From Phycisphaerae bacterium (GTDB lineage Bacteria; Planctomycetota; Phycisphaerae; UBA1845): a stretch of 61,229 nucleotides of DNA. This document shows, in pieces, positions 6,924 to 32,762 of the stretch; the stretch's first letter is position 1, and every line of letters begins with the position of its first letter. Under the pieces are notes generated by a model. That model saw nothing but the letters and a program-made list of their open reading frames with translations. It was not told the DNA's origin and did no database searches. The DNA is taken from the NCBI GenBank assembly GCA_029260055.1, contig JAJDDX010000418.1, forward strand, positions 1-61,229, written 5' to 3'. A program made the position numbers and the translations under genes.

Positions 6924-7382
6924 CAACGGATCAAAAGAAGCGGATCACAGTTCAGTAGGACTCTGGAGAGAGCATCACTCCACCATGATGACCATACTCA
7001 GGTCGCTGGCGAAGGCGTTGGTTGTGCCCAAATCCGGAGTCGACCACATATTCTTGGCGTCATCCGAAGGACAGATGCCCTGCTGCCGCGCCTGCCCGGT
7101 CGGGGCCGTCCGCATATCAGTGTTTTCCCTGATGCGTGAAGAATCGCCGTTTGCCACAATGCGGGATTAGTGGGGAGGTTGTGCGCAGAGATGCACAGGT
7201 TTCGCAAGGCGCCTGCGCTCTTGCCTGCGTGCGCATGTGTCATAGAATCTGAACTGGCGAGCGCCCGTTGCGGCGCAGCCTGCGGCGCTGGGTCCACATC
7301 CGGCGTCCGATTCTGGTTTGCGGCTGGTGCCTGCACCCTTGGCACCGCATCAGGACTACGGGAGATCCTCGCTGGACGCCCT

Positions 7383-8243
7383 ATGACGGACCGCAGCCTT
7401 CCAACGCCAGAGCGATTCTTGACGATCCGTGTTCACGATCTCACGCATCAGCCATCGGTCTCAGGCCTGTGCGTGGGGTACGAACGCGAAGCATGGCGGT
7501 CCTCACAATTCGTGAGGCACATCATGGAGTGGCTGCCGGAGTTCGCGCTCAGCCCGGCCGAGTACAACACGATCCGCGGCGAGAACGCAGTCGCTCAGCT
7601 TCGCCGAGCCGCTGCAACGGTCTATGAGTCGAAGAAGTTCCGTAACCGGGGTGAGTTTGGAGAGCTGTTTTTACACGCGGCGGTACGGCAAGTATTCGAC
7701 TCGTTGCCGGCAGTTTCCAAGATCTACTACAAGACAGCCCGCAACGAAACGGTCAAGGGTTTCGACGCGGTCCACGTCGTAGGTCCACCTGATGAACTCG
7801 AACTCTGGCTTGGCGAGGCGAAGTTCTACGCGAAGATCGACGCGGCGATTCGCGACGTCGTCGTTGAGCTAGAAAAGCACACAGGCATCGACTACCTCCG
7901 AAACGAGTTTCTGCTTATCACAGGCAAGATCGATCCTGATTGGCCGCACGCTGAGACCCTCAGAAGACTACTGTCACCGAATACGTCGTTAGATGAGGTC
8001 TTCCGGCGCGCCTGTATTCCTGTCTTGCTGACATACGACAGCGCCTGCGTTGGCTCAAGCACGTCATGCGACGAGGCATACTGCGAGAACTTCGAGGCGG
8101 AGATCCGGCGGTATCATGCAACGTTCAGCAACAAGGCGCTTCCAACGGAGGTGCGTATTCACCTCTTCCTGCTTCCGCTTGAGAGCAAAGCGGAACTTGT
8201 CAAGGGACTGGATCAGAGACTGAAGACATGGCAGGCACTTTGA
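7383..8243 (+). CDS. hamA: Hachiman defence nuclease HamA (DUF1837)
   Basis: The start is placed at ATG 7383 (MTDRSLPTPERFL); the frame is open further upstream but is not protein-like. The 286-residue product carries the DUF1837/HamA core: RNRGEFGELFLH (E91, E94), the strand IYYKTARNETVKGFDAVHVV with D128, and LWLGEAKFY with E145 and K147. Together these form a PD-(D/E)XK nuclease site. In Hachiman systems HamA binds the HamB helicase, which restrains it until phage-related DNA is sensed; HamA then degrades DNA. The stop overlaps the helicase start by 16 bases, so the two are translationally coupled. The assignment rests on motif pattern plus the helicase partner. Confidence 0.88.
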   Translation: MTDRSLPTPERFLTIRVHDLTHQPSVSGLCVGYEREAWRSSQFVRHIMEWLPEFALSPAEYNTIRGENAVAQLRRAAATVYESKKFRNRGEFGELFLHAAVRQVFDSLPAVSKIYYKTARNETVKGFDAVHVVGPPDELELWLGEAKFYAKIDAAIRDVVVELEKHTGIDYLRNEFLLITGKIDPDWPHAETLRRLLSPNTSLDEVFRRACIPVLLTYDSACVGSSTSCDEAYCENFEAEIRRYHATFSNKALPTEVRIHLFLLPLESKAELVKGLDQRLKTWQAL

Positions 8244-10357
8244 GTACCGATGAGCTTCGAAGGACTCTGCGAAGTGCGACGGCTGTCACGGATAGCGCGT
8301 TTGCCGTTCTAAAGAGCATTTCTGCACTCATCAACGACAAGAAGCAGGAGGTGACCGGCCGGGAGATGGTTCTTCGTGCTCTGGAACGCCGCAACGAGTT
8401 TGGTCACTGCACCCCAATCCTCGACGGACTGACGAGAGCCATCGGGCTGTTTCCGTACGCAGATCCGGAGGCCCTCGATTTTCGAGATAGTGTGGCCTAC
8501 GAGTTTCATCGGCCCCTGAACATGTCCGAGAATCTCGTGTTTCATCGAGAACAAGCAGATGTGTACAGGCGGCTCCTCGACGGGGACAGTGTTATCCTCA
8601 GCGCCCCAACGAGCTTCGGCAAGAGCCGCATCATCGATGCCATGATCGCGACGCGCCGTTTCAAAAACATCGCCGTAATCGTCCCAACTTTGGCGCTTAT
8701 CGACGAGACGCGCCGTCGGCTGTCGAGGCAGTTTTCCGGTGCCTACAAGATCGTCACTCATCTCTCGCAAGAGCCGGCGGAAAAGAACATCTTCGTGTTC
8801 ACGGCGGAGCGAGCCGTCGCCTACGAAGCGTTCCCGCGGATCGAGTTCTTCGTCATCGACGAGTTCTACAAACTCGGCGCCATGAGCGAAGATACGACGC
8901 GAACGGTGGCGCTAAACCACGCATTCTACAAGCTGAGACAAGGCGACGGGCAATTCTACCTTCTGGGGCCGAGCATCGAGACGATTCCGCACGGCCTTGA
9001 GGAGGAGTTCCGGTGCTACTTCTACCCCACACGCTACAACACGGTCGTAGCCGACCAGGAGAGAGTTGCAGGGCGCGGGCACGATCTGGAACGGCTGGTC
9101 ACACTTGCGAAGACACTCAATGAGCCGACGTTGGTGTACTGCAAATCGCCAGCACGTGTAAACGCAGCGGCTCGTGCGCTGCTTGCCGCCGGCGTCGGCG
9201 TTGATACACCATCCTTGAAGCCGGCGGCCGAATGGACGGGGAGCTCATATCATCCGGACTGGGTGTTCGGCCAGGCGCTTGTACGTGGCATCGGCGTTCA
9301 CCACGGGCGCCTGCCCCGCTCACTTGCCCAGTACGTTGTGCGGATGTTCAATGAGTTGCGCCTGCGGTTCCTGATTTGCACTTCGACCCTGATCGAGGGT
9401 GTAAACACCAAAGCGAAGAACGTAGTCGTCTTCGACAAGAAGATAGGTACTAAGGACTACGATTTCTTTACGTTCAACAACATAAGGGGTAGATCAGGCC
9501 GAATGTTCGAGCACTATGTCGGCCGCGTATTCCTGTTCCACGAACCGCCGGAACATCGCCTGCCCTTTGTCGAGTTTCCGGTATTCACTCAAGGAGAAGA
9601 TGTTCCTGGGAGCTTGCTTGTACAGATCGACACGCCTGACCTTAGGCCTGCCGCGCTAGACCGCGTACGCAAGATCGCAGACCAGGAGGTTCTGCCGATG
9701 AGCATCATTCGTGAGAACTCGACGATCGACCCTGAGGCGCAGATTGGCCTAGCGAAAGCGATCGGGGACGACGCGCACGTGATGTCCCGTCGGCTATCAT
9801 GGCGGAAGTTCCCGGAATACCAACAACTCAAGGCTGCATGCGAGTTGATTTGGAAACACCTGGTGGATGCTAAACGACGAGGCGGAGTACGATCTGGAAG
9901 CCAACTTGCGATGAAGACGTGGCAACTTCGTAAGACGCCAAGTGCCGCGAAGCGGATTCGCGATGAGTTGACTCCGGGCAAATACGCAGCGAAGTCGCCG
10001 GACGAGGCGGTCGAGCGGGTCCTTGCGTTTGAGCGGACTTGGGCGGGTTTTGAGATGCCACGCTACTTGATGGCGCTCTCCCGGATACAGGCGTCGGTAC
10101 TTGGGCGACAAGGGTTGCCCACAGGGGACTACAGCGCGTTTGCGGCACAGGTCGAGTGTTCGTTCCGGAACCCGGTTACCGCTGCACTGGATGAGTATGG
10201 CGTGCCACCTCAGGTCGTCGAGAGGATTCAGCCAGCGCTCGGCGAGACGGACGATCTGGATCGAGCGTTGGTGCGACTCAAGACGCTAGACGTGCAGGCG
10301 CTGCGGCTGGGGAACTTCGAGGCGGAGTTGGTGCGGGATGCCCAGGCGGGTCTTTGA
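8228..10357 (+). CDS. hamB: Hachiman defence helicase HamB (DExx-box, Ski2-like)
   Basis: The 709-residue superfamily 2 helicase starts at ATG 8228 inside hamA. Walker A is SAPTSFGKS (residues about 125-133), motif Ia is IVPTLALIDE, and motif II is VIDEFYKL, a DEFY variant around residues 211-214. Domain 2 shows VYCKSPARV, LICTSTLIEGVN (motif V) and IRGRSGRMF (motif VI). This is the form of HamB and related Ski2-like helicases. In the family, HamB loads on DNA ends or nicks and releases its nuclease partner HamA. Nothing is missing, so the system may be functional. The C-terminal 230 residues are helical and specific to this group. Confidence 0.88.
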   Translation: MAGTLSTDELRRTLRSATAVTDSAFAVLKSISALINDKKQEVTGREMVLRALERRNEFGHCTPILDGLTRAIGLFPYADPEALDFRDSVAYEFHRPLNMSENLVFHREQADVYRRLLDGDSVILSAPTSFGKSRIIDAMIATRRFKNIAVIVPTLALIDETRRRLSRQFSGAYKIVTHLSQEPAEKNIFVFTAERAVAYEAFPRIEFFVIDEFYKLGAMSEDTTRTVALNHAFYKLRQGDGQFYLLGPSIETIPHGLEEEFRCYFYPTRYNTVVADQERVAGRGHDLERLVTLAKTLNEPTLVYCKSPARVNAAARALLAAGVGVDTPSLKPAAEWTGSSYHPDWVFGQALVRGIGVHHGRLPRSLAQYVVRMFNELRLRFLICTSTLIEGVNTKAKNVVVFDKKIGTKDYDFFTFNNIRGRSGRMFEHYVGRVFLFHEPPEHRLPFVEFPVFTQGEDVPGSLLVQIDTPDLRPAALDRVRKIADQEVLPMSIIRENSTIDPEAQIGLAKAIGDDAHVMSRRLSWRKFPEYQQLKAACELIWKHLVDAKRRGGVRSGSQLAMKTWQLRKTPSAAKRIRDELTPGKYAAKSPDEAVERVLAFERTWAGFEMPRYLMALSRIQASVLGRQGLPTGDYSAFAAQVECSFRNPVTAALDEYGVPPQVVERIQPALGETDDLDRALVRLKTLDVQALRLGNFEAELVRDAQAGL

Positions 10358-21214: not shown

Positions 21215-21763
21215 ATGAGACGCATCTTTCGAACTCTCTATCAGATCGACTGGCGCGGCGGTGTCCGCGCCGTTAAGCGTGAGCAACTGACGGACTACGA
21301 GGATGGAACCGTCGAGGAAGTCCAAGCGATCGGCGTGGCCAATTGCGAGGCGTGCCAACGTCCGGTCGAGAAGCTTGCGGACTACCGCGGTGTGTGCCCG
21401 CGCTGCGAACGGGAAACTTGCGTCGAGTGCCAAGCAACCTGCGCCGCATGTCGGCGCCGCTTCTGCGCGTACTGCATGGTCGGATTCGCCGACAAGGTGG
21501 TAAGCGTCTGCGAGCGCTGCCTGATCGGCCTCGAACAGAGAGTGGCACGTCAGGACCGCCAGATCGACGCGAAGCTTACTCACGATCGCCTCATCGCGCT
21601 GTTCAACGCCGAACTGAAGTTCCTTGAACTCAGCACACGAGAGGGCGGAGCCATGGCGGACCTGATCTCGTGGATAATGCGCGTCCGCCTGGCGCAACGC
21701 CTGTCCCGGCTCGAGCACACGCTGGACCATGAAGACCGTCATGACCCACGACGCCTGCGCTAG
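21215..21763 (+). CDS. Cysteine-rich protein with six CxxC pairs (RING/treble-clef-like candidate)
   Basis: ATG 21215 with GGGAGG upstream; 182 residues. Residues 44-102 contain twelve cysteines as six CxxC pairs: C44/C47, C61/C64, C69/C72, C76/C79, C84/C87, C99/C102. This could bind up to three zinc ions; the two central pairs (CAACRRRFCAYC) have the close spacing of FYVE/RING-like binuclear treble clefs. The flanking regions are a basic N-terminus and a C-terminal helical region (LIALFNAELKFLELS, RLAQRLSRLEHTLDH). RING-like proteins occur in some prokaryotic Ubl operons, so an E3 or adaptor role is a reasonable hypothesis, not shown. It overlaps the HerA-like gene by 35 bases. Confidence 0.7.
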   Translation: MRRIFRTLYQIDWRGGVRAVKREQLTDYEDGTVEEVQAIGVANCEACQRPVEKLADYRGVCPRCERETCVECQATCAACRRRFCAYCMVGFADKVVSVCERCLIGLEQRVARQDRQIDAKLTHDRLIALFNAELKFLELSTREGGAMADLISWIMRVRLAQRLSRLEHTLDHEDRHDPRRLR

Positions 21764-23960
21764 CGAATTCGAGTCCCAGGGCTTCGAGCGGATCGGTGGG
21801 ATTCACTACAATCTCGCGATCGCGCTCTGGTGGCACCCTCGGCTGTGCATCCACGCGAGCGTACTCGCGGTCGATGACTGGCACCTCCTTCAGTCAGGCA
21901 AGCCGTACCTTCTGCGGTCGATGGCGGAGGAGGGGGAGACCTACGCCCGGGATCTTGGCCTGCTCGAGGAGTACCTCGTCGCGCATTTTCCGGAGGCACA
22001 TCTGTCGCTGTCCTCGTTCCGAGATCCGACGCTCAGCCTGATTCAGGCCCGTATCGATGCGAGACACACTCGACACGCCAACGCCTGCGGACCGGACGGC
22101 AGCGCCGCCATGCAACAGGAACTCGATCGACTCACGGGCGAAGCGGATGAGCTTCAAGAGGCGCAGCAACGTGACCGGGCGCTGCAACGACTCGACCGGA
22201 ACACGTCGCCTCTGCTCCGCGAACATCTCAACCGGAACTTGGGCGATCGCTCGCGGAAGGTGGAGGACCTACGTCGGAACGCGCGCGAGACCCGGGAGCG
22301 CCTCTCAGCGCAAGGCCAACTGGAACGCGAGTATCGCGGCAAATCCAATGCGCTGTGCCTGCTCTTCACGATATGCTCAAACATCCAGATCGTGCGGGAT
22401 GCAGACTCGGTCCAAGACGCCCTGTCCAGCGTGACCAAAGAGATCGTAGATCTGGACAGGTTTCAGGTCCGACAGAAGCTCGAAGGCGGGTCGCTGCGCA
22501 TCTATGTCGAGGCGTCTCCCGCTCCGGCGGTTTCCCTCCTTACGCACGCCACGCGGACCATCATGAATCCTCGTCAACTCGAACGCCTGGGAGAGGCTGC
22601 ACAGCCCGTTCGAGATGCCGTCGAACGCCAGTTGATGCTCGTGCCGCGAGAGGACATCCGGGTCAACGGCTCGGTCGTTGATCCAAAGAAACTCATTGCC
22701 TCACGGATCGTGCAGAGCTTCCTGCAGCATCTCCCCAAAGGTACGGCCGCACGCGCGCGCGGAGCTGATCCCGTTCCGGCCAGCGCTCAGCCGCTCTGGA
22801 TCGGGACCATCGCGGAGGCAGGACCGCGGCGCGGCGACCCCTGGGTGCTCCCGCTGGATCGCAGTGGTCATGTCTACATCTCCGGCCGAAGCAACGCGGG
22901 TAAGACCTTCCTCGGGCGGGTCATCGCGGAATCGGCTGCAACGCTCGAATCGGTCAGCGTCGTTGTCATCGATCCGTCGAACCAGGCGGTCGGTCTTCTC
23001 TGCCCGGAGGATCGGCCCGAGGTCCTGGCGCGGTACCGCCGATTCGGCCTGAAACGCAGTGATGCGCAGGCATTTCCCTTTACCTACCACGGTCTCGCCG
23101 ACTCGGTAGGCGAACCGCTTCCGTCCGATCTGGGCCAGCTGGCGCACGGATACCACATCGTCAGCTTCACCGGGCTCGATGACGGGAGCCGCTGCATTCG
23201 CTTCGCGGCGATCATGGATGCGCTCTTCGCCGCCTGCTCGGTTGGCGAGGCCGAATCCGTCCGCCTTGTGATCCTGATCGAAGAGGCACACCGATTCACG
23301 CGCCGAGGTGTCGATCGGGAGGCACGCGAGGCCGCCGACCGGGCGGAGCTCAGCTTGGAGCGCCATGCCAGGGAGGGCCGGAAGTATGGAATTCGGCTGT
23401 TCATCAGCAGCCAGTCCATCAAGGACTTTTCGTTCAGCGCGGCGGCAATACGGCAGAACGTGTCGACGCGGGTGTTCATGCAGAATAGCGATCGTGAACT
23501 CGACTATGCCGCGGACCACATCGGGGATGGAAGACGAATTCTCAGGCTCCCCCGCGGCGAGGCGCTCTTCTGCAATCCCGATTGGGAGATTGCTCATGTC
23601 GCCGTTCGGCCGCCACTTTCGATGGTCCGGCAGCCGACCGAAGCCGAGATCTGCCGCTTGGTCGGTGGGCCGACCGCGACCTCCTCGTCACTATCACGCC
23701 AGGCCATGGCCGCGCTCGATGCGATTACTGGCCACGTCGATGCGACGGGCGGACCGGTCCGATGGTCGAAGATCGTTGAGGAACTCGGCGTCACCGGCCG
23801 ACGCGTGCGCGATCGGCTTGTCGACGAACTCCAAGGCAGCGGGCACGTCGCCTTCACTCGGTTGAAAGCAACGGGGCGGCCGCTCGTCGTCACGCTGGCG
23901 CGCGCAGAAACCGCGCTGAAAGGGCGCGCGGAAACGCCATCAACTCAGAGCATTGATTAA
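21729..23960 (+). CDS. HerA/FtsK-superfamily ATPase with coiled coil and winged-helix end
   Basis: 743 residues from ATG 21729 (a second ATG at 21741). About residues 115-205 form a coiled coil (ELDRLTGEADELQEAQQRDR). The ATPase core has Walker A ISGRSNAGKT (residues about 384-393), Walker B VRLVILIEEAHRF (about 512-524), and the segment LERHAREGRKYGIRLFISSQS, which carries the arginine finger and sensor of HerA-type hexameric pumps. The last 90 residues (AMAALDAITGHVDATGGPVRWSK..., ELGVTGRRVRDRLVDELQGSG) read as a winged helix. HerA relatives translocate DNA or power defence complexes. It is coupled to the Cys-rich gene and closes the Ubl cluster. Confidence 0.8.
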   Translation: MKTVMTHDACASEFESQGFERIGGIHYNLAIALWWHPRLCIHASVLAVDDWHLLQSGKPYLLRSMAEEGETYARDLGLLEEYLVAHFPEAHLSLSSFRDPTLSLIQARIDARHTRHANACGPDGSAAMQQELDRLTGEADELQEAQQRDRALQRLDRNTSPLLREHLNRNLGDRSRKVEDLRRNARETRERLSAQGQLEREYRGKSNALCLLFTICSNIQIVRDADSVQDALSSVTKEIVDLDRFQVRQKLEGGSLRIYVEASPAPAVSLLTHATRTIMNPRQLERLGEAAQPVRDAVERQLMLVPREDIRVNGSVVDPKKLIASRIVQSFLQHLPKGTAARARGADPVPASAQPLWIGTIAEAGPRRGDPWVLPLDRSGHVYISGRSNAGKTFLGRVIAESAATLESVSVVVIDPSNQAVGLLCPEDRPEVLARYRRFGLKRSDAQAFPFTYHGLADSVGEPLPSDLGQLAHGYHIVSFTGLDDGSRCIRFAAIMDALFAACSVGEAESVRLVILIEEAHRFTRRGVDREAREAADRAELSLERHAREGRKYGIRLFISSQSIKDFSFSAAAIRQNVSTRVFMQNSDRELDYAADHIGDGRRILRLPRGEALFCNPDWEIAHVAVRPPLSMVRQPTEAEICRLVGGPTATSSSLSRQAMAALDAITGHVDATGGPVRWSKIVEELGVTGRRVRDRLVDELQGSGHVAFTRLKATGRPLVVTLARAETALKGRAETPSTQSID

Positions 23961-24212: not shown

Positions 24213-24665
24213 ATGAACGGACAGCGGCCGAACAGTCGGAAGAGGAAGGCACGCCCCGCACCAGCCGCGCTGGCTTCGCGGAAGCAGCAGACCATCGAAG
24301 TGATCGCTGACGATCACGCGCCAGTGCCGCAGGCCGGTAGCGCCTCACCCGACCGCGACGGGCTTGATTCCGCTCACTGGCTCGAGCGTACGCTCGAAGC
24401 CTGGCAGAAATTCTCGCCGCAAACACTGACGCAGGACGACGCGAAGCGGATCGCCGCGGCGGGAATACGGTTCGTGGACGCCCTTTGGGAGGACGAGGAT
24501 GATGACTCTGATCTCCATCTGCCGGGTGAGCTCAAGAGAGCAGAAGGAGGGCTACAGCCTCGATGCTCAGGATCGGGCCAACCGCGAATGGTCCAGGCGG
24601 AACGGCCATACCATCCTGGAGACGATTCTCTACCAGGAAACCGCGAGCAAACGGGCGAAACGTGA
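24213..24665 (+). CDS. Small protein upstream of the serine recombinase
   Basis: The frame from ATG 24213 (MNGQRPNSRKRKARPAPAA) has a basic N-terminus and a helical segment DSAHWLERTLEAWQKFSPQTLTQDDAKRIAAAGIRFVDALWEDEDDD, which looks like the small proteins often found just before recombinase genes in mobile elements. After that point it runs 167 bases into the recombinase gene in another frame, with low-quality text. The true end may differ or the overlap may be real. The region 23961-24212 before it holds nothing I can support. Confidence 0.45.
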   Translation: MNGQRPNSRKRKARPAPAALASRKQQTIEVIADDHAPVPQAGSASPDRDGLDSAHWLERTLEAWQKFSPQTLTQDDAKRIAAAGIRFVDALWEDEDDDSDLHLPGELKRAEGGLQPRCSGSGQPRMVQAERPYHPGDDSLPGNREQTGET

Positions 24666-25998
24666 GCGATGGCGTACGATTCTCGATCGGATCCGGGACG
24701 ATCCGCGAGTGGACGGGGCGGTGTTCCACAAGATCGACCGGGCCTCCCGCAACATGCCCGATTGGTACCAGATCGAGCAACTGCAGGACGAGTTCGGCAA
24801 GAGTTTCTTCTTCGCCACGCAGAACTTTGCGACGGACGCCACGGGACGGCTCAACGCCCGTGTCATGGCGTCGTTCGCCGCCTTCTACACCGAGAACTTG
24901 GCCGAGGAGGTCAAGAAGGGATTTGCGGAGGCGATCAGGCGGGGGCATTTTCCGCATCGACCACCGTACGGCTACCGGCACTACCGTTCGAATGGGCACA
25001 CGAGTGAGATCGTGGTCGACGAAACGAGGGCATCAACGGTCAGGTTGATCTATGAACTGTACGCGAGCCGTCAGCACTCGCTGAGCTCACTCCGCGAACA
25101 CCTCTTCAGGGAAGGTATCTACTATACCGAGAAGACACCGAGGTTCGTCCGATCGCACCTCGAGAAGCTTCTCAAAAACCGCTTCTACCTTGGAAAAATC
25201 CCGTGGCGAGGCGGGCTCCATCCCGGCAGGCATCCCGCGATCATCACGCCGGCACTGTTCGACCGGGTACAGGCCGTCTTCGCCGGCCACAACCGACACC
25301 ACTATGGTCGCTGGGATGTCTACTACAGCGGCGGCCTGATCACTTGCGGGCAATGTGAAGCCGCCGTGACGGTCGAGGTCGTCAAGGGCAGGTACGCTTA
25401 CGCTCGCTGCTCACGGATCGGACACGCCGGTCACCCGAGAATCCGCCTGCCCGGCCGCCGGATCGAGGGCCATCTGCTCGAGATCGTACGTGCCATCAGC
25501 CTCCCCACCGATGTTTGCGAGTGGCTCGGCGATCTGAACGCACAGCGTGAAGTCGGGCGAGTCGCGTGGCAGGTCGAGCAGGAACGGAGGCTTCTGACGC
25601 GTACGGAGAGATTGCGGACACGGCTGGATGCCCTCTACATCGATAAGCTCCACGAGGAGATCTCCGTCGAACGGTACCGGGATCTGGAGCGTACCTGGCA
25701 CGCGGAAGTCGGCGAGGTGGAACGGGCGATCAGTCGGTGTCGCGAGCGGCGTGACGCCGAACTTGTCCGGCGTCAGAGTATGATCGAGCGGCTGCGAGAT
25801 CCTGTGGTGTCGTACGTCCACATGCGGCCGGCGGCGAGGCGGCGGATCCTCGATGCCCTCTGTCTGGAGATTCGTCTCGTCGGTGACCGGCTCGTCCCCA
25901 CCTACCATGCTCCCTTTGATCTCCTCGTGCGAGCGTGCTCCTATGGCCCCGGCATCGGTCGCGACGACCCGGTTGCCGTCGCCGGTCGGCGGGAATAG
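24499..25998 (+). CDS. Large serine recombinase (copy 1)
   Basis: 499 residues from ATG 24499 (GACGAGG just upstream). Domains in order: resolvase catalytic domain (about 4-150) with ISICRVSSREQ, where S11 is the expected nucleophile, and KIDRASRNMPDW; a recombinase domain (about 155-265) with FPHRPPYGYRHY; a zinc-ribbon (about 275-320) with GGLITCGQCEAAVTVEVV and YARCSR; then a coiled-coil region and the end VPTYHAPFDLL. Such enzymes integrate and excise mobile elements at short att sites. About three quarters of the catalytic domain residues match copy 2 at 28301, so they are close paralogues. It could be the integrase of a first, older element. Confidence 0.92.
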   Translation: MMTLISICRVSSREQKEGYSLDAQDRANREWSRRNGHTILETILYQETASKRAKRERWRTILDRIRDDPRVDGAVFHKIDRASRNMPDWYQIEQLQDEFGKSFFFATQNFATDATGRLNARVMASFAAFYTENLAEEVKKGFAEAIRRGHFPHRPPYGYRHYRSNGHTSEIVVDETRASTVRLIYELYASRQHSLSSLREHLFREGIYYTEKTPRFVRSHLEKLLKNRFYLGKIPWRGGLHPGRHPAIITPALFDRVQAVFAGHNRHHYGRWDVYYSGGLITCGQCEAAVTVEVVKGRYAYARCSRIGHAGHPRIRLPGRRIEGHLLEIVRAISLPTDVCEWLGDLNAQREVGRVAWQVEQERRLLTRTERLRTRLDALYIDKLHEEISVERYRDLERTWHAEVGEVERAISRCRERRDAELVRRQSMIERLRDPVVSYVHMRPAARRRILDALCLEIRLVGDRLVPTYHAPFDLLVRACSYGPGIGRDDPVAVAGRRE

Positions 25999-28300: not shown

Positions 28301-30142
28301 ATGAACCTGGTATCCATATGCCGCGTCAGTTCGCGAGAACAACGCGAAGGCTACAGCCTCGACGCTCAGGATCGAGCCAACCGTGAATGGGCGAGCCGGA
28401 ACGGGCATGTCATCGTCAGGACCATCCAGTATCAGGAGACGGCTAGCCAGAACAAGAAACGAGAGCAGTGGAACGCAATGCTCGCACAGATCCGCGACGA
28501 TCCCGATATCGACGGTGCGGTGTTGCACAAGATCGATCGCGCCTCCCGCAACATGCCCGACTGGTACCAGATGGAGGAACTCCAGGCGACGCGTGGGAAG
28601 AGCTTCTTCTTTGCAACCCAGAATTTTGCGACGGATGCCACGGGACGGCTCAATGCCAGAGTGATGGCATCTTTCTCCGCATTCTACACTGAGAATCTGG
28701 CGGACGAAGTGCGGAAGGGATTCGAAGAGGCGATCCGGCAGGGGCACTTCCCGCACTCACCGCCCTATGGTTACCGGCACCGGCGTACGGGTGAACGAAG
28801 GACGCGGATCGTGATTGATGAGGAACGGGCAGCTAAAGTCCGTCGGATCTACGAGTTGTATGCCACGCAGGAGCACTCGCTGACTTCGCTTCGCGAACAT
28901 CTGTTCGCGAACGGTGTGTTCTACACGGGAAGGACGCCCCGCTTCACGCGATCCTACCTTGATCTCATGCTCAAGAACCGCTTCTACGTTGGAGATATCC
29001 CGTGGCGCGGGCACGTGTATCCCGGAAACCATCCACCGATCGCGTCGCAGGAGCTGTTCGACCGAGTACAGAAGGCATTCGCTGCTCACAACCGGCACGA
29101 CTACCGCAAACAGCGGGTCTACTACGGTGGCGGGCTGATCACTTGTGGTCATTGCGACCGCGCGGTCACGGTCGAACTCATCAGGGAGAAGTACGCTTAC
29201 GCTCGCTGCTCGCGCGCGACGGCGGCCGGCCACCCAAGGACGCGCTTACGAGGTGCGGATGTCGAGGGTCAGTTGCTTGAGATTGTGCGGGCGGTCGAGC
29301 TGCCGGAAGACGTCCTTGCCCGGCTGGACGGGTTGGCGCGCAAGGACGGGATGGCGGAAGCCGAGTGGAACCGCAGCCAGGGGCGGCAGTTATCCCGACA
29401 GGCCGCGAGACTTCGACACCGCCTGGACGCGGCGTACGCCGACAAACTGGACGGCGTGATTTCGGACGAACGCTATGAGAAGCTTGAGCGGTCGTGGCGG
29501 TGCGAGCTGCGCCAAGTCGAGGAAGCGACTGCGGACAGCCGGGGCTCGACCGTGCGGCCGCTTACTCACACCCTCAGGGCGTTTGAACTCACGCAAGGCC
29601 TTGCGGGAAGGTATGTTACGGAGAATCCCGCCGAGAGACGGACGACCCTTGATAGGCTGTGTTTGAACATCTGCCTCGACGACGTAAGTCTTGTGCCTAC
29701 ATACAATAAGCCCTTCGACCTAGTGGCCGAAGGGCATCGAAGAGGGTTTGATTCGGGGCGACAGGATTTGAACCTGCGACTTCCTGCTCCCAAAGCAGGC
29801 GCGCTACCGGGCTGCGCCACGCCCCGAACTTGCCTTCAGGATACCAATTCCGTGGTGTTTCGCAAGCATGGAGCGGCGCGTCGACGCTTCGCCGTCGCCT
29901 ACGCCACTTTGATCACCACAATGGTGATATCGTCCGATTGCCGCGCGAGGCCGGCAAAGCGGCGCACGTCCCATAGAAGCTGCTGTGCCAATTGCTGCGC
30001 GTCCAGATCGCGGTGCCGCAGGATCGACGCAAGAAGGCGCTGCTTGCCGTACTCTCGGTCGTCGAAGTCCAGCGCCTCGGTGACGCCGTCCGTCACGATC
30101 GCGAGGATGTCGCCCGGAAGGAAGGCGATCTCCTCGTGTTGA
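28301..30142 (+). CDS. Large serine recombinase (copy 2), reading into tRNA-Pro
   Basis: ATG 28301 follows AAGGAGGAG. The first ~480 residues are a complete large serine recombinase: catalytic domain with SICRVSSREQ (S10), KIDRASRNMPDW, recombinase domain with FPHSPPYGYRH, zinc ribbon GGLITCGHCDRAVTVELI with YARCSR, coiled coil, and the end VPTYNKPFDLVAEG. At about 29750 the frame runs without a stop into the tRNA-Pro gene in antisense (text DSGRQDLNLRLPAPKAG) and on through the phosphatase gene to 30142. The last ~130 residues are therefore host sequence, not recombinase. The tRNA 3' end meets the recombinase 3' end, which suggests that integration used this tRNA as target. Confidence 0.88.
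   Translation: MNLVSICRVSSREQREGYSLDAQDRANREWASRNGHVIVRTIQYQETASQNKKREQWNAMLAQIRDDPDIDGAVLHKIDRASRNMPDWYQMEELQATRGKSFFFATQNFATDATGRLNARVMASFSAFYTENLADEVRKGFEEAIRQGHFPHSPPYGYRHRRTGERRTRIVIDEERAAKVRRIYELYATQEHSLTSLREHLFANGVFYTGRTPRFTRSYLDLMLKNRFYVGDIPWRGHVYPGNHPPIASQELFDRVQKAFAAHNRHDYRKQRVYYGGGLITCGHCDRAVTVELIREKYAYARCSRATAAGHPRTRLRGADVEGQLLEIVRAVELPEDVLARLDGLARKDGMAEAEWNRSQGRQLSRQAARLRHRLDAAYADKLDGVISDERYEKLERSWRCELRQVEEATADSRGSTVRPLTHTLRAFELTQGLAGRYVTENPAERRTTLDRLCLNICLDDVSLVPTYNKPFDLVAEGHRRGFDSGRQDLNLRLPAPKAGALPGCATPRTCLQDTNSVVFRKHGAARRRFAVAYATLITTMVISSDCRARPAKRRTSHRSCCANCCASRSRCRRIDARRRCLPYSRSSKSSASVTPSVTIARMSPGRKAISSC
29753..29826 (-). tRNA. tRNA-Pro (TGG anticodon)
   Basis: The reverse strand folds as a full tRNA of 74 bases: acceptor CGGGGCG/CGCCCCG with discriminator A, D arm GCGC...GCGC containing AGCCCGGTA, anticodon stem CCTGC/GCAGG with loop TTTGGGA (anticodon TGG), T arm GCAGG-TTCAAAT-CCTGT. 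The C1-G72 pair is typical of bacterial tRNA-Pro. CCA is not encoded. Its 3' end faces the recombinase gene, so the chromosomal gene has stayed intact after insertion. Confidence 0.95.
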
Positions 30143-31698
30143 AACGCCTCGTCCGGGTGCAGGCCGATGACCGGCCCGCCCGTCGTCAGTTCCGAAAGCT
30201 CGCTGCCGCGCAGAAGCAGTGGAGGCAGGTGGCCCGCGTTGCAGTAGGTAAAGGTCTTGCCGTCCGGCGACAACGCACCATACACCAGTGTGGCGAACTC
30301 ACTGACGAGCGTATCGCGGCACATGTGACGGTTGACCTCGGCGACGGCTTCGTCGACTTCCCGCTCCCGCCGAACCGACGCCCGTAGCGCCGACCGCACC
30401 GACGCCATCATGAGCGCAGCCGGAAAACCCTTGCCGACCACGTCCGCCACCACTATCCCCATTGAGTCGTCCGGCGATTCGATGAAGTCATAGAAGTCGC
30501 CGCCGACATCGAGCGAAGGATCGTAGACGCAACCGAACGTCACGCCGGGTATCGTCGGATGCTCCGCCGGTAGCATGCGGCGCTGGATCTCACCGGCTGC
30601 GGCGACCTGACGCTCGACACGCCGTGCCTGAGCCTGCCCCTCGAACAGGCGGGCGTTGATGATCGCCGACGCCGCCTGCGACGCGATCGAAGTCACTAGT
30701 GCCGATTCCACGTCACTGAACGCGTACCGTTTTGACGTATAGACCCGCAGGACGCCGACGGTCTGACCGCGATAGGTCATGGGGGCGCACAAGCCGCTGA
30801 CGATGCCCTCTCGCCGCGCGTTGTCGGGATAACGAATGCGCGGGTCGTTCGGCGCGTCGGCGATGTAGACCATCTGGCCGGCAAAAGCAGCCGCGTCGAT
30901 CGCGTTCTCCGCGAGCGTCACGCGGCCCTTGCCGAGGTACTCGTCCGAGAGGTTGTGGACCGCCTGGATGACCAGTTCTCCCGTCTCCTCGTTCAAGAGC
31001 CGAATGCCGCAGGCTTTGACCGGAAGCACGTCGACGACGCGCTCGACCGTCAGGTCGAGGATCTCTTGGAGGTCGCGCGTACTGGAAAGAAGCTCAGCCA
31101 GGCCGTATACGACCGACAGATCGGCGAGCTGTCGTTGAATGCGCTGCGCCTGGTCGTAGAGGGTGGCGATGGTGTCCGCCAAGACGTCGGCGAACCGATG
31201 CGTCGCCTCCGGCGTAGCGCCGGTGTGCGACGTGGTCCGGTTGATGTCCGCGATGAGCTTCGCGGCCTCGATGCCGTACTGCGCAGCCGCCCCGCGTGCC
31301 TGTGCGTCGTCCGGCGGCCGAGCGGCGCGCGTACCGACGACGATCGCGGCGAGCCGATGGCCGTCGTGCGTAATCGGCGTCGCGTAGAGAGCCAGGCCTT
31401 CATGGCAAATCGACGGTACGGCGCGGTCGTCCGTCTGAACCACAGCCCGCAGGCTGTCCGCCATGACGATTCGCCCGAGCTTGGAGTTGCCGATGAGCGC
31501 CGAGTAGCGACTGCCCCAGCTCGGCTGCGTGATGAGCTCGCCGCTCACCGAGCAGATGCACACCGTGACCTGTCCCAGCGCGGCAAAGCGATCCTGCAGG
31601 CGCTGGAGCGTGTCGGCTGCGACGAGCCGAGTGAGTTCGGTGTCGGCCTCGGGCACCGTATCATGTGGACCTGTGCCGTCGCGTGGCTCGCTCGTCAT
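29899..31698 (-). CDS. Serine phosphatase with PocR-like, GAF and PP2C (SpoIIE/RsbU) domains
   Basis: Start ATG 31698 (MTSEPRDG). About 599 residues in three parts. About 20-155: a sensory domain with LQRLQDRFAALGQVTVCI and DGHRLAAIVVGT, like PocR/ligand-binding regions. About 200-350: a GAF domain (LSSTRDLQEILDLTVERVVD, GLCAPMTYRGQTVGVLRVY). About 375-598: PP2C-type phosphatase, with AGEIQRRMLPAEHP, DVGGDFYDF, VVADVVGKGFPAALMM, NAGHLPPLLLRG and the acidic metal site in LAIVTDGVTEALD and QSDDITIVVI. RsbU-like phosphatases control anti-anti-sigma factor switches. It starts 2 bases after the upstream peptidase stop, so the two are co-transcribed. Confidence 0.9.
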   Translation of the reverse strand: MTSEPRDGTGPHDTVPEADTELTRLVAADTLQRLQDRFAALGQVTVCICSVSGELITQPSWGSRYSALIGNSKLGRIVMADSLRAVVQTDDRAVPSICHEGLALYATPITHDGHRLAAIVVGTRAARPPDDAQARGAAAQYGIEAAKLIADINRTTSHTGATPEATHRFADVLADTIATLYDQAQRIQRQLADLSVVYGLAELLSSTRDLQEILDLTVERVVDVLPVKACGIRLLNEETGELVIQAVHNLSDEYLGKGRVTLAENAIDAAAFAGQMVYIADAPNDPRIRYPDNARREGIVSGLCAPMTYRGQTVGVLRVYTSKRYAFSDVESALVTSIASQAASAIINARLFEGQAQARRVERQVAAAGEIQRRMLPAEHPTIPGVTFGCVYDPSLDVGGDFYDFIESPDDSMGIVVADVVGKGFPAALMMASVRSALRASVRREREVDEAVAEVNRHMCRDTLVSEFATLVYGALSPDGKTFTYCNAGHLPPLLLRGSELSELTTGGPVIGLHPDEAFQHEEIAFLPGDILAIVTDGVTEALDFDDREYGKQRLLASILRHRDLDAQQLAQQLLWDVRRFAGLARQSDDITIVVIKVA

Positions 31699-31700
31699 GG

Positions 31701-32762
31701 TCAATCCGGGATGAAACTGGTCCTGGGTCCGATCTTCGCGACGGTCTCAGCGATGAGCTTGGCCGCCGCCTGCAGATCAGAGAGGCTCACGACCTCGACC
31801 TGCGTGTGCATATACCGATTCGGGATGCCGACCAGTGACGTGGCCACACCGCCGCGCGTAAGCTGTATCGCGTTGGCGTCGGTCCCGGAGCCGCCGGGGC
31901 TGCCCTCGAACTGGACGGGAATCCTCTTGGCCTTGGCGGTCGCGGTGAGCATCGCCTCGAGTTTCGGGTTGATATTGGCGCCGCGGGAGATCGTCGGCCC
32001 AGCGCCCATTTTCACGTCACCGTTGGCGCGTTTGTCGATGTCCGGGTAATCGGTGGCGTGCGTGACGTCGACGGCGATGCCCACGTGTGGATCGACACCG
32101 TAACACGATGTCTTCGCGCCGCGCAGGCCGACTTCCTCCTGCACCGTGCTAACGGCAAAGAGCGCGCACTTGAGCTTCTTGACCGTGCAGAGCCGCAGGG
32201 CCTCCATCACCACGAACGTGCCGCACTTGTTGTCCAGCCCCGGCGACGTGACGAAGTCGCTGCCGAGATGGCTCATCTCCAAACGGAACGTGATGGGGTC
32301 GCCGATCCGCACGACACGCTCGACTTCCTTCTTGTCTTTGGCGCCGATGTCCACCCACATCTCGCGCAGTTCGATCTTGGCGCCGCGCTCCTCCGGTTTG
32401 AGCACGTGAATGGGGCGCCGGCCGATGATGCCGTCGACCGGGCCGTGCGCCGTGTGAATCACCAAGCGCGAACCGGGCACGACGCTCGGGTCGATTCCGC
32501 CGATCGCCGTGAAGAAGATGTAGCCCTTGTCGTCGATGTAGTTGACCATCATGCCGATCTGGTCGCAGTGGCCGGCCAGCATGACCCGCGGGCTGCCCTT
32601 CGGGTTGAGCCCGACGATGACGTTGCCGTGCACGTCCGTCTCGATCGAATCGGCATGCCGTTTCATGCGATCCCGCACGACGCGCTGCACGGGCTGCTCA
32701 AAGCCCGACGGCGAGGGTGTTTCCTGGATGGTCTTTAAGAACTCGTAGGATTCCTTGCGCAT
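31701..32762 (-). CDS. M42 family metallopeptidase (aminopeptidase)
   Basis: 353 residues, ATG 32762. Motifs of the M42 family: VMLAGHCDQIGMMV (first metal His and Asp), SPGLDNKCGTFVVMEAL (bridging Asp), VSTVQEEVGLRGAKTS (catalytic Glu pair), GIAVDVTHATDYP (metal Asp), and PNRYMHTQVEVVSLSDL (last metal His). Members are self-compartmentalising aminopeptidases with two metal ions that degrade short cytoplasmic peptides; some are annotated as endoglucanases by mistake. Length and motif order are normal. It is the first gene of a pair with the phosphatase. Confidence 0.93.
   Translation of the reverse strand: MRKESYEFLKTIQETPSPSGFEQPVQRVVRDRMKRHADSIETDVHGNVIVGLNPKGSPRVMLAGHCDQIGMMVNYIDDKGYIFFTAIGGIDPSVVPGSRLVIHTAHGPVDGIIGRRPIHVLKPEERGAKIELREMWVDIGAKDKKEVERVVRIGDPITFRLEMSHLGSDFVTSPGLDNKCGTFVVMEALRLCTVKKLKCALFAVSTVQEEVGLRGAKTSCYGVDPHVGIAVDVTHATDYPDIDKRANGDVKMGAGPTISRGANINPKLEAMLTATAKAKRIPVQFEGSPGGSGTDANAIQLTRGGVATSLVGIPNRYMHTQVEVVSLSDLQAAAKLIAETVAKIGPRTSFIPD

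Follow-up and report, generated by a model that had tools for sequence, protein, structure and literature searches.

What does it mean when the gene of a large serine recombinase (LSR) runs, without a stop codon, into the antisense strand of an intact tRNA gene? This arrangement occurs in the window analysed here, by which we mean the whole 61,229-nucleotide stretch of DNA from a Phycisphaerae bacterium. The features concerned are as follows.

28301 to 30142, plus strand: LSR1, a large serine recombinase, as an open frame in the integrated state (open reading frame, Pfam and family alignment A1)
29752 to 29827, minus strand: tRNA-Pro (TGG), intact, 3′ end towards LSR1; right half of attB (ARAGORN)
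29899 to 31704, minus strand: host gene for a SpoIIE-type phosphatase, to the right of the tRNA (also the neighbour in G031, G001 and G002)

LSR1 starts with the ATG at 28301 and its translated frame gives a product of 613 aa, up to a stop at 30142. Pfam places an N-terminal resolvase domain (PF00239, E 8e-20) before the Recombinase domain (PF07508, E 1.5e-13), both above cut-off and in the domain order of an LSR. The zinc ribbon (PF13408) scores 23.1 bits with a cut-off of 25.3, and the CxxC..C cysteines are invariant across A1. The conserved part occupies 28301-29749 and finishes with the family-conserved end ..NKPFDLVAEGHRRGF. After 29749 the frame reads antisense tRNA-Pro and then the antisense of the SpoIIE-type gene, with no stop before, within or shortly after the tRNA, and it remains open for 388 nt beyond the tRNA 3′ end, across unrelated host antisense. 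A preliminary description of this DNA had noted both the stop-free run past the conserved end into the tRNA-Pro antisense and an intact tRNA whose 3′ end abuts the recombinase, in agreement with the translated frame and with ARAGORN; it ended the frame segment at 29826, whereas the actual stop at 30142 lies after the whole tRNA. The SpoIIE-type gene and its next neighbour also adjoin tRNA-Pro in G001 and G031, and adjoin a tRNA 5′ half in G002. The best overall explanation, and one that we consider probable, is that LSR1 belongs to a lineage of LSRs that use tRNA 3′ ends, with attP inside the recombinase gene and a tail of the circular form that would be lost upon integration.

The alignment A1, of 15 members, was used to find relatives among 397 genomes of the class, and a profile search recovered them in 64 of these at E<=1e-60. 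Matches reaching the C-terminus gave 75 non-redundant loci; 17 of the 92 matched rows, mostly partial or low-scoring, were left out, and L137, discussed below, stands outside the set as its gene region is identical to that of L138. At 65 of the 75 ends the LSR runs into the antisense of a tRNA or tmRNA (58 Pro, with all three anticodons, 3 Arg and one each of Ala, Lys, Asp and tmRNA), three further contigs terminate inside tRNA sequence, and the remaining seven, window LSR2 included, are tandem junctions or lack a tRNA. These tRNA-adjacent ends agree with the earlier proposal that integration had fused the 3′ end of the recombinase to host DNA. Named relatives include Zixiibacteriota and Acidobacteria metagenome-assembled genomes (MAGs), and one Acidobacteria MAG has the same LSR end against a tRNA-Ser. 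Among more distant LSR loci (57-174 bits) a tRNA was found at the end in 0 of 16.

An ordinary tRNA island, whose LSR lacks a stop by chance in GC-rich DNA and whose read-through is harmless and without a role, would account for the long run of the window frame through host antisense and for integrated tails that vary with each host tRNA. We regard this as unlikely, given that 64 of the 65 tRNA-adjacent members are stop-free up to the tRNA, that the spacing to the tRNA is fixed and that the circular-form tail described below is constrained as protein in the LSR frame. Of these 65 members, 36 have their first stop no more than 25 nt into the tRNA, 20 farther along the tRNA, 8 past it and one before it. 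The conserved PF codons are separated from the TCG of the tRNA by 44 nt in 55 of 58 tRNA-Pro cases, a count that includes 10 cases anchored by the script 24 nt later, and the LSR frame keeps the same register with the tRNA in 55/58. In the three window-clade cases (the window, G031 and G016) the spacing is 45 nt and the frame is one base off; this clade therefore enters the tRNA in a different frame and passes over its stop codons. Judged from the loci compared, insertion at tRNA 3′ ends is a solid trait at the level of the family, and is extended to the window by homology.

Several genomes have more than one tRNA occupied. In the window's own genome a second tRNA-Pro (CGG) is taken by a main-clade LSR (L009, G000:C357:405-1862) that is 35% identical to LSR1 and has its stop 134 nt beyond the tRNA 3′ end. 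All three tRNA-Pro genes (TGG, GGG and CGG) of G050 are occupied by family LSRs (L069, L076 and L077). The G056 member at L078:10645-10998 uses a tmRNA 3′ end and has no hairpin of the kind described below.

The position of the crossover can be read from natural junctions. G182, a single contig of 7.4 Mb, has three LSR copies (L136, L137 and L138), of which L137 and L138 are 99.9% identical across 2,011 bp, through ..AACAAGTCG. Beyond this point L138 continues into tRNA-Pro and L137 into CCGCTCCC.. without a tRNA. L137 shares its strand with the tRNA-adjacent copy L136 and lies 81 kb upstream of it; because a tandem array joins the left arm of one element to the right arm of the next, a junction of this type represents attP sequence. 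Seven junctions of LSR and P′ were collected (L135, L137, L159, L161, L162, L279 and L313), and junctions like that of L137 also occur in G060, G105, G287, G250, G028 and G203. The left ends of single elements (G046, two in G258, and further genomes) carry other DNA until the base before TCG. A search for an empty site gave no clean example: the left-flank genes of G046 sit across the tRNA, inverted, in G059 and G229. What attP, attB, attL and attR have in common ranges merely from TCG to TCGGGGYGAC, TCG alone being common to all junctions compared, so that the partial tRNA-Pro 3′ repeat anticipated for the left end in the preliminary description is not what these elements carry. Likewise, no copy of the tRNA-Pro acceptor or T-arm was found within 100 kb upstream of the LSR in the single-contig genomes G046, G203, G258 and G182. 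Since CG would be symmetric, we infer that TC is the crossover centre. In the relatives the natural junctions thus show a crossover, as read from sequence, at TC in the final bases of the tRNA 3′ end and not in the anticodon. The corresponding positions in the window are these.

29753 to 29754, no strand: putative attR crossover dinucleotide, TC, in the 3′ end of the tRNA (carried over to the window from natural junctions and attL sites of relatives)
29764 to 29772, plus strand: GGATTTGAA, the T-loop in antisense, occupying half-site positions 11-19 as counted from TC; predicted attB zinc-ribbon motif (sequence and the position rule of PMC3783163)

In relatives the T-loop motif GGATTYGAA lies at positions 11-19 from TC and its attP counterpart at 16-24; the TTYGAA-type motif is therefore at 19-24 in P′ versus 14-19 in the T-loop, 5 bp farther out in attP, with a poorer fit in some P′ arms (GTTGAA, ATAGAA). 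The zinc-ribbon motif of the LI integrase is placed at positions 11-19 in attB and 16-24 in attP in the parts of PMC3783163 that treat it. By analogy with this published rule, the zinc ribbon may contact the T-arm of the tRNA.

As attP lies within the coding frame in relatives, the gene of the circular form runs on into P′. Joining LSRs to the far ends of their own elements gave an in-frame, conserved tail in 9 of 9 cases; as an example, the circular form ends ..SRGDSTPVELFVQGIRAWEPGIKGLLSRETVKRD* and the integrated gene ..SRGDRI* or ..SRGDWIRTSDLLDPNQAL*. Moreover, LSR and tail are fused in frame at L135, L137, L161, L162 and L313. The tandem junctions of G182 and G105 have a second class of tail, mutually similar (50% over 38 residues), the tail of G060 likewise differs from the main class, and the long tail of L159 (G250) resembles no other; therefore the tail is not a single conserved domain. 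AlphaFold predicts the usual LSR domains, and two helices for the G182-type tail at moderate confidence (pLDDT about 59-67, pTM 0.45).

Far-end sites were then collected with an 18-nt DNA pattern alone across the 397 genomes, which gave 28 places in 19 genomes (27 distinct sequences, 21 non-redundant). At least 14 LSRs have a listed far-end site within 100 kb on their own contig and, by hand comparison, in 13 of them every such site is on the strand of the LSR and upstream of it; G056, among the 14, has one site rightly placed and one wrongly. No LSR stands directly before 25 of the 28 places, and those copies are thus not readable at present as LSR tails. These solitary copies would suit a conserved DNA element with additional accessory binding sites, or a small gene of its own, in place of an LSR tail, and the first 25 bp need conservation as attP DNA regardless. 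Past the half-site (nt 25-61), however, the LSR frame has a pN/pS of 0.38, lower than in any of 200 column shuffles (0/200), and the remaining five frames have values of 0.59-1.66; sites found partly through a protein profile gave the same outcome as the DNA-only sites. All 27 far-end sequences are stop-free for 25 codons in the LSR frame, whereas the two remaining forward frames are open over this length in 14 and 1 of them. With this codon constraint, a frame fixed relative to the crossover and the in-frame fusions at five loci, a DNA element or small gene seems quite improbable.

An attP inside the recombinase gene and a circular-form tail selected as protein are, by these comparisons, solidly indicated in the relatives, and would apply to the window by homology. 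The compared junctions of relatives likewise show the tail replaced by tRNA antisense, a replacement that for LSR1 itself is predicted from homology only. The expectation of the preliminary description that the free circle encodes a different C-terminus therefore holds in relatives, where tails could be joined and are conserved; for the window a different C-terminus would follow by homology. A scan for the far end of the window clade's element gave nothing convincing, and neither the left end of the LSR1 element nor its own tail was found.

A further family feature lies in the last LSR codons.

29710 to 29735, no strand: hairpin GCCCTTCG-10 nt-CGAAGGGC in the last conserved LSR1 codons, resembling a terminator on the strand of the tRNA (sequence; covariation across the family)

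These codons (KPFDxLxEG) form an inverted repeat of at least 8 bp in 54 of 75 ends, versus 6 of 375 control windows from the same genes. A model of 13 pairs is 75% paired, and 26-49% when slid, with covarying positions such as C-G 50/G-C 15 and C-G 46/T-A 12. The T content of the 10 nt after the stem is 6.0 for the tRNA strand and 3.4 for the LSR strand. At the far end of the elements in G046 and G050, the displaced flank bears a hairpin right at the core, as a native tRNA terminator would. Position, covariation and T-richness together suggest that the LSR hairpin replaces the displaced terminator of the tRNA.

To the left of LSR1 the window holds a second LSR and defence cargo, with a ThiF-type gene also left of the LSRs.

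24499 to 25998, plus strand: LSR2, 61% identical to LSR1, with its own stop and without a tRNA or clear hairpin at its end
7170 to 10357, plus strand: HamA and HamB, Hachiman defence genes carried as cargo to the left of the LSRs

LSR2 is probably an older or decayed tandem copy; its 3′ end was considered as the attP junction of the LSR1 element and dropped, TTYGAA being absent at 19-24. An ORF of 743 aa at 21729-23960 has weak matches to HerA and mad8 and is 46% conserved in G031, shortly before the LSR of that genome.

A single long tRNA-Pro 3′ repeat was found in the window's own genome, of 46 bp at C410:12992-13037 (L007, G000) and ending in the anticodon arm, flanked on the left by host-like genes and on the right by DNA methylase, HD-CE and ORC-CDC6-like genes. 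Half-copies of tRNA-Pro that stop in the anticodon arm were seen at L007, G010:C207 and G013:C6, two of them in G010 at 2.3 kb from each other, and G002:C23 carries the matching tRNA 5′ half, for which G013 shows an inverted-repeat-like partner end. G010 and G013 have no LSR-family match at E<=1e-60, and at L210 and L212 a half-tRNA is followed by tyrosine-integrase-like genes (ORFs judged by reading). That the window element crossed over in the anticodon loop, with the C410 repeat as its left end, is very unlikely and was rejected, for despite 46/46 identical bases and host-like genes on the left and defence-like genes on the right, half-tRNAs with the same endpoint occur in genomes free of the family LSR and precede tyrosine-integrase-like genes, and in relatives of the LSR the crossover is at the 3′ end of the tRNA. 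The repeat is probably the mark of another type of element stacked at the same tRNA. Synteny of the C410 left gene, and of the G001 left gene, with the tRNA/SpoIIE locus gave no support either way; the C410 end and the window start share no 12-mer, leaving adjacency of the two contigs without support.

Returning to the LSR lineage with attP in its gene, we propose the following mechanism. The LSR1 lineage would insert islands exactly at tRNA 3′ ends, mostly of tRNA-Pro, with the zinc ribbon recognising the T-arm motif GGATTYGAA (attB 11-19, attP counterpart 16-24). Strand exchange would take place at the TC near the tRNA 3′ end, and the tRNA would thus stay wholly host DNA. As the recombinase gene is predicted to span attP, its frame in the circle would run into the opposite end of the element and encode a conserved tail of ~22-50 residues. 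Integration would remove this tail and substitute antisense tRNA codons, and the new frame would end at a stop in the tRNA (a TGA or TAG in the T-loop, or a TAG farther on) or, if none is in frame, beyond the tRNA, as in the window. The tailed enzyme, made from the free circle only, would be the integrating form, and the tail-less form may lower re-excision or superintegration, making the tail a putative switch between integrating and integrated states. The hairpin in the final LSR codons would stand in for the displaced tRNA terminator. A bolder version, which we offer only tentatively, is that these are bacterial, serine-family 'self-cutting' recombinases in which a T-arm-reading zinc ribbon, a stop from the host tRNA and tail loss as a directionality switch may be combined with integron-like cassette arrays behind one LSR at tRNA ends.

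The LSR1 family has the domain order and the short shared core of large serine integrases (A118/LI integrase, Bxb1 and phiC31 type), and its relatives share the attP motif placed 5 bp farther from the centre than that of attB, as given for large serine integrases in sections of PMC3783163. Unlike these enzymes, it targets tRNA 3′ ends and has attP inside the recombinase coding frame; for mycobacteriophage serine integrases, a passage of PMC9262239 states that they do not integrate into tRNA genes. In archaeal suicidal tyrosine integrases (SSV1, pTN3 and pT26-2) the target lies within the integrase gene and integration cuts that gene, as in the LSR relatives and, we infer, the window. However, the LSR1 family consists of bacterial serine rather than tyrosine recombinases, and loses just a C-terminal tail while the catalytic part stays whole. 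In mycobacteriophage BPs, as PMC4557955 and PMC9262239 describe, integration at a tRNA shortens the C-terminus of a phage protein, with a stop codon from the bacterial junction; in that phage the repressor gene is cut and a tyrosine recombinase serves as integrase, whereas in the LSR1 family the cut gene is the recombinase itself. Among the openly licensed PMC papers listed, no title or abstract opening described a tRNA-end-targeting LSR or an LSR gene cut by integration.

Islands with tyrosine integrases that target tRNA genes occupy tRNA 3′ ends and form tandem stacks. They include a long duplicate of the 3′ part of the tRNA, in contrast to the LSR1 family, which has no such direct repeat. 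The ends of the latter are otherwise hard to predict, and the att-site sequence rule (TC at the tRNA end and the T-arm motif) could locate such islands. Moreover, the family would tie integration state to the form of the recombinase with no regulator needed, and it offers candidate LSRs aimed at a sequence common to nearly all tRNAs.

Lastly, repeated far-end att sites, on one strand and spaced by 0.3-8 kb, occur at L300, L302-L307 and L309 (G314, G050, G219, G377, G301, G382, G276 and G385). Cargo between or beside these recurring sites includes an RND efflux system plus a P-type ATPase, Pnkp/Hen1 RNA repair and a thiaminase-like gene. A hairpin of at least 8 bp stands just before the core in 11 of 25 far-end sites without an LSR, versus 2 of 140 controls. 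The recurring sites resemble cassette-like arrays without an LSR of their own.
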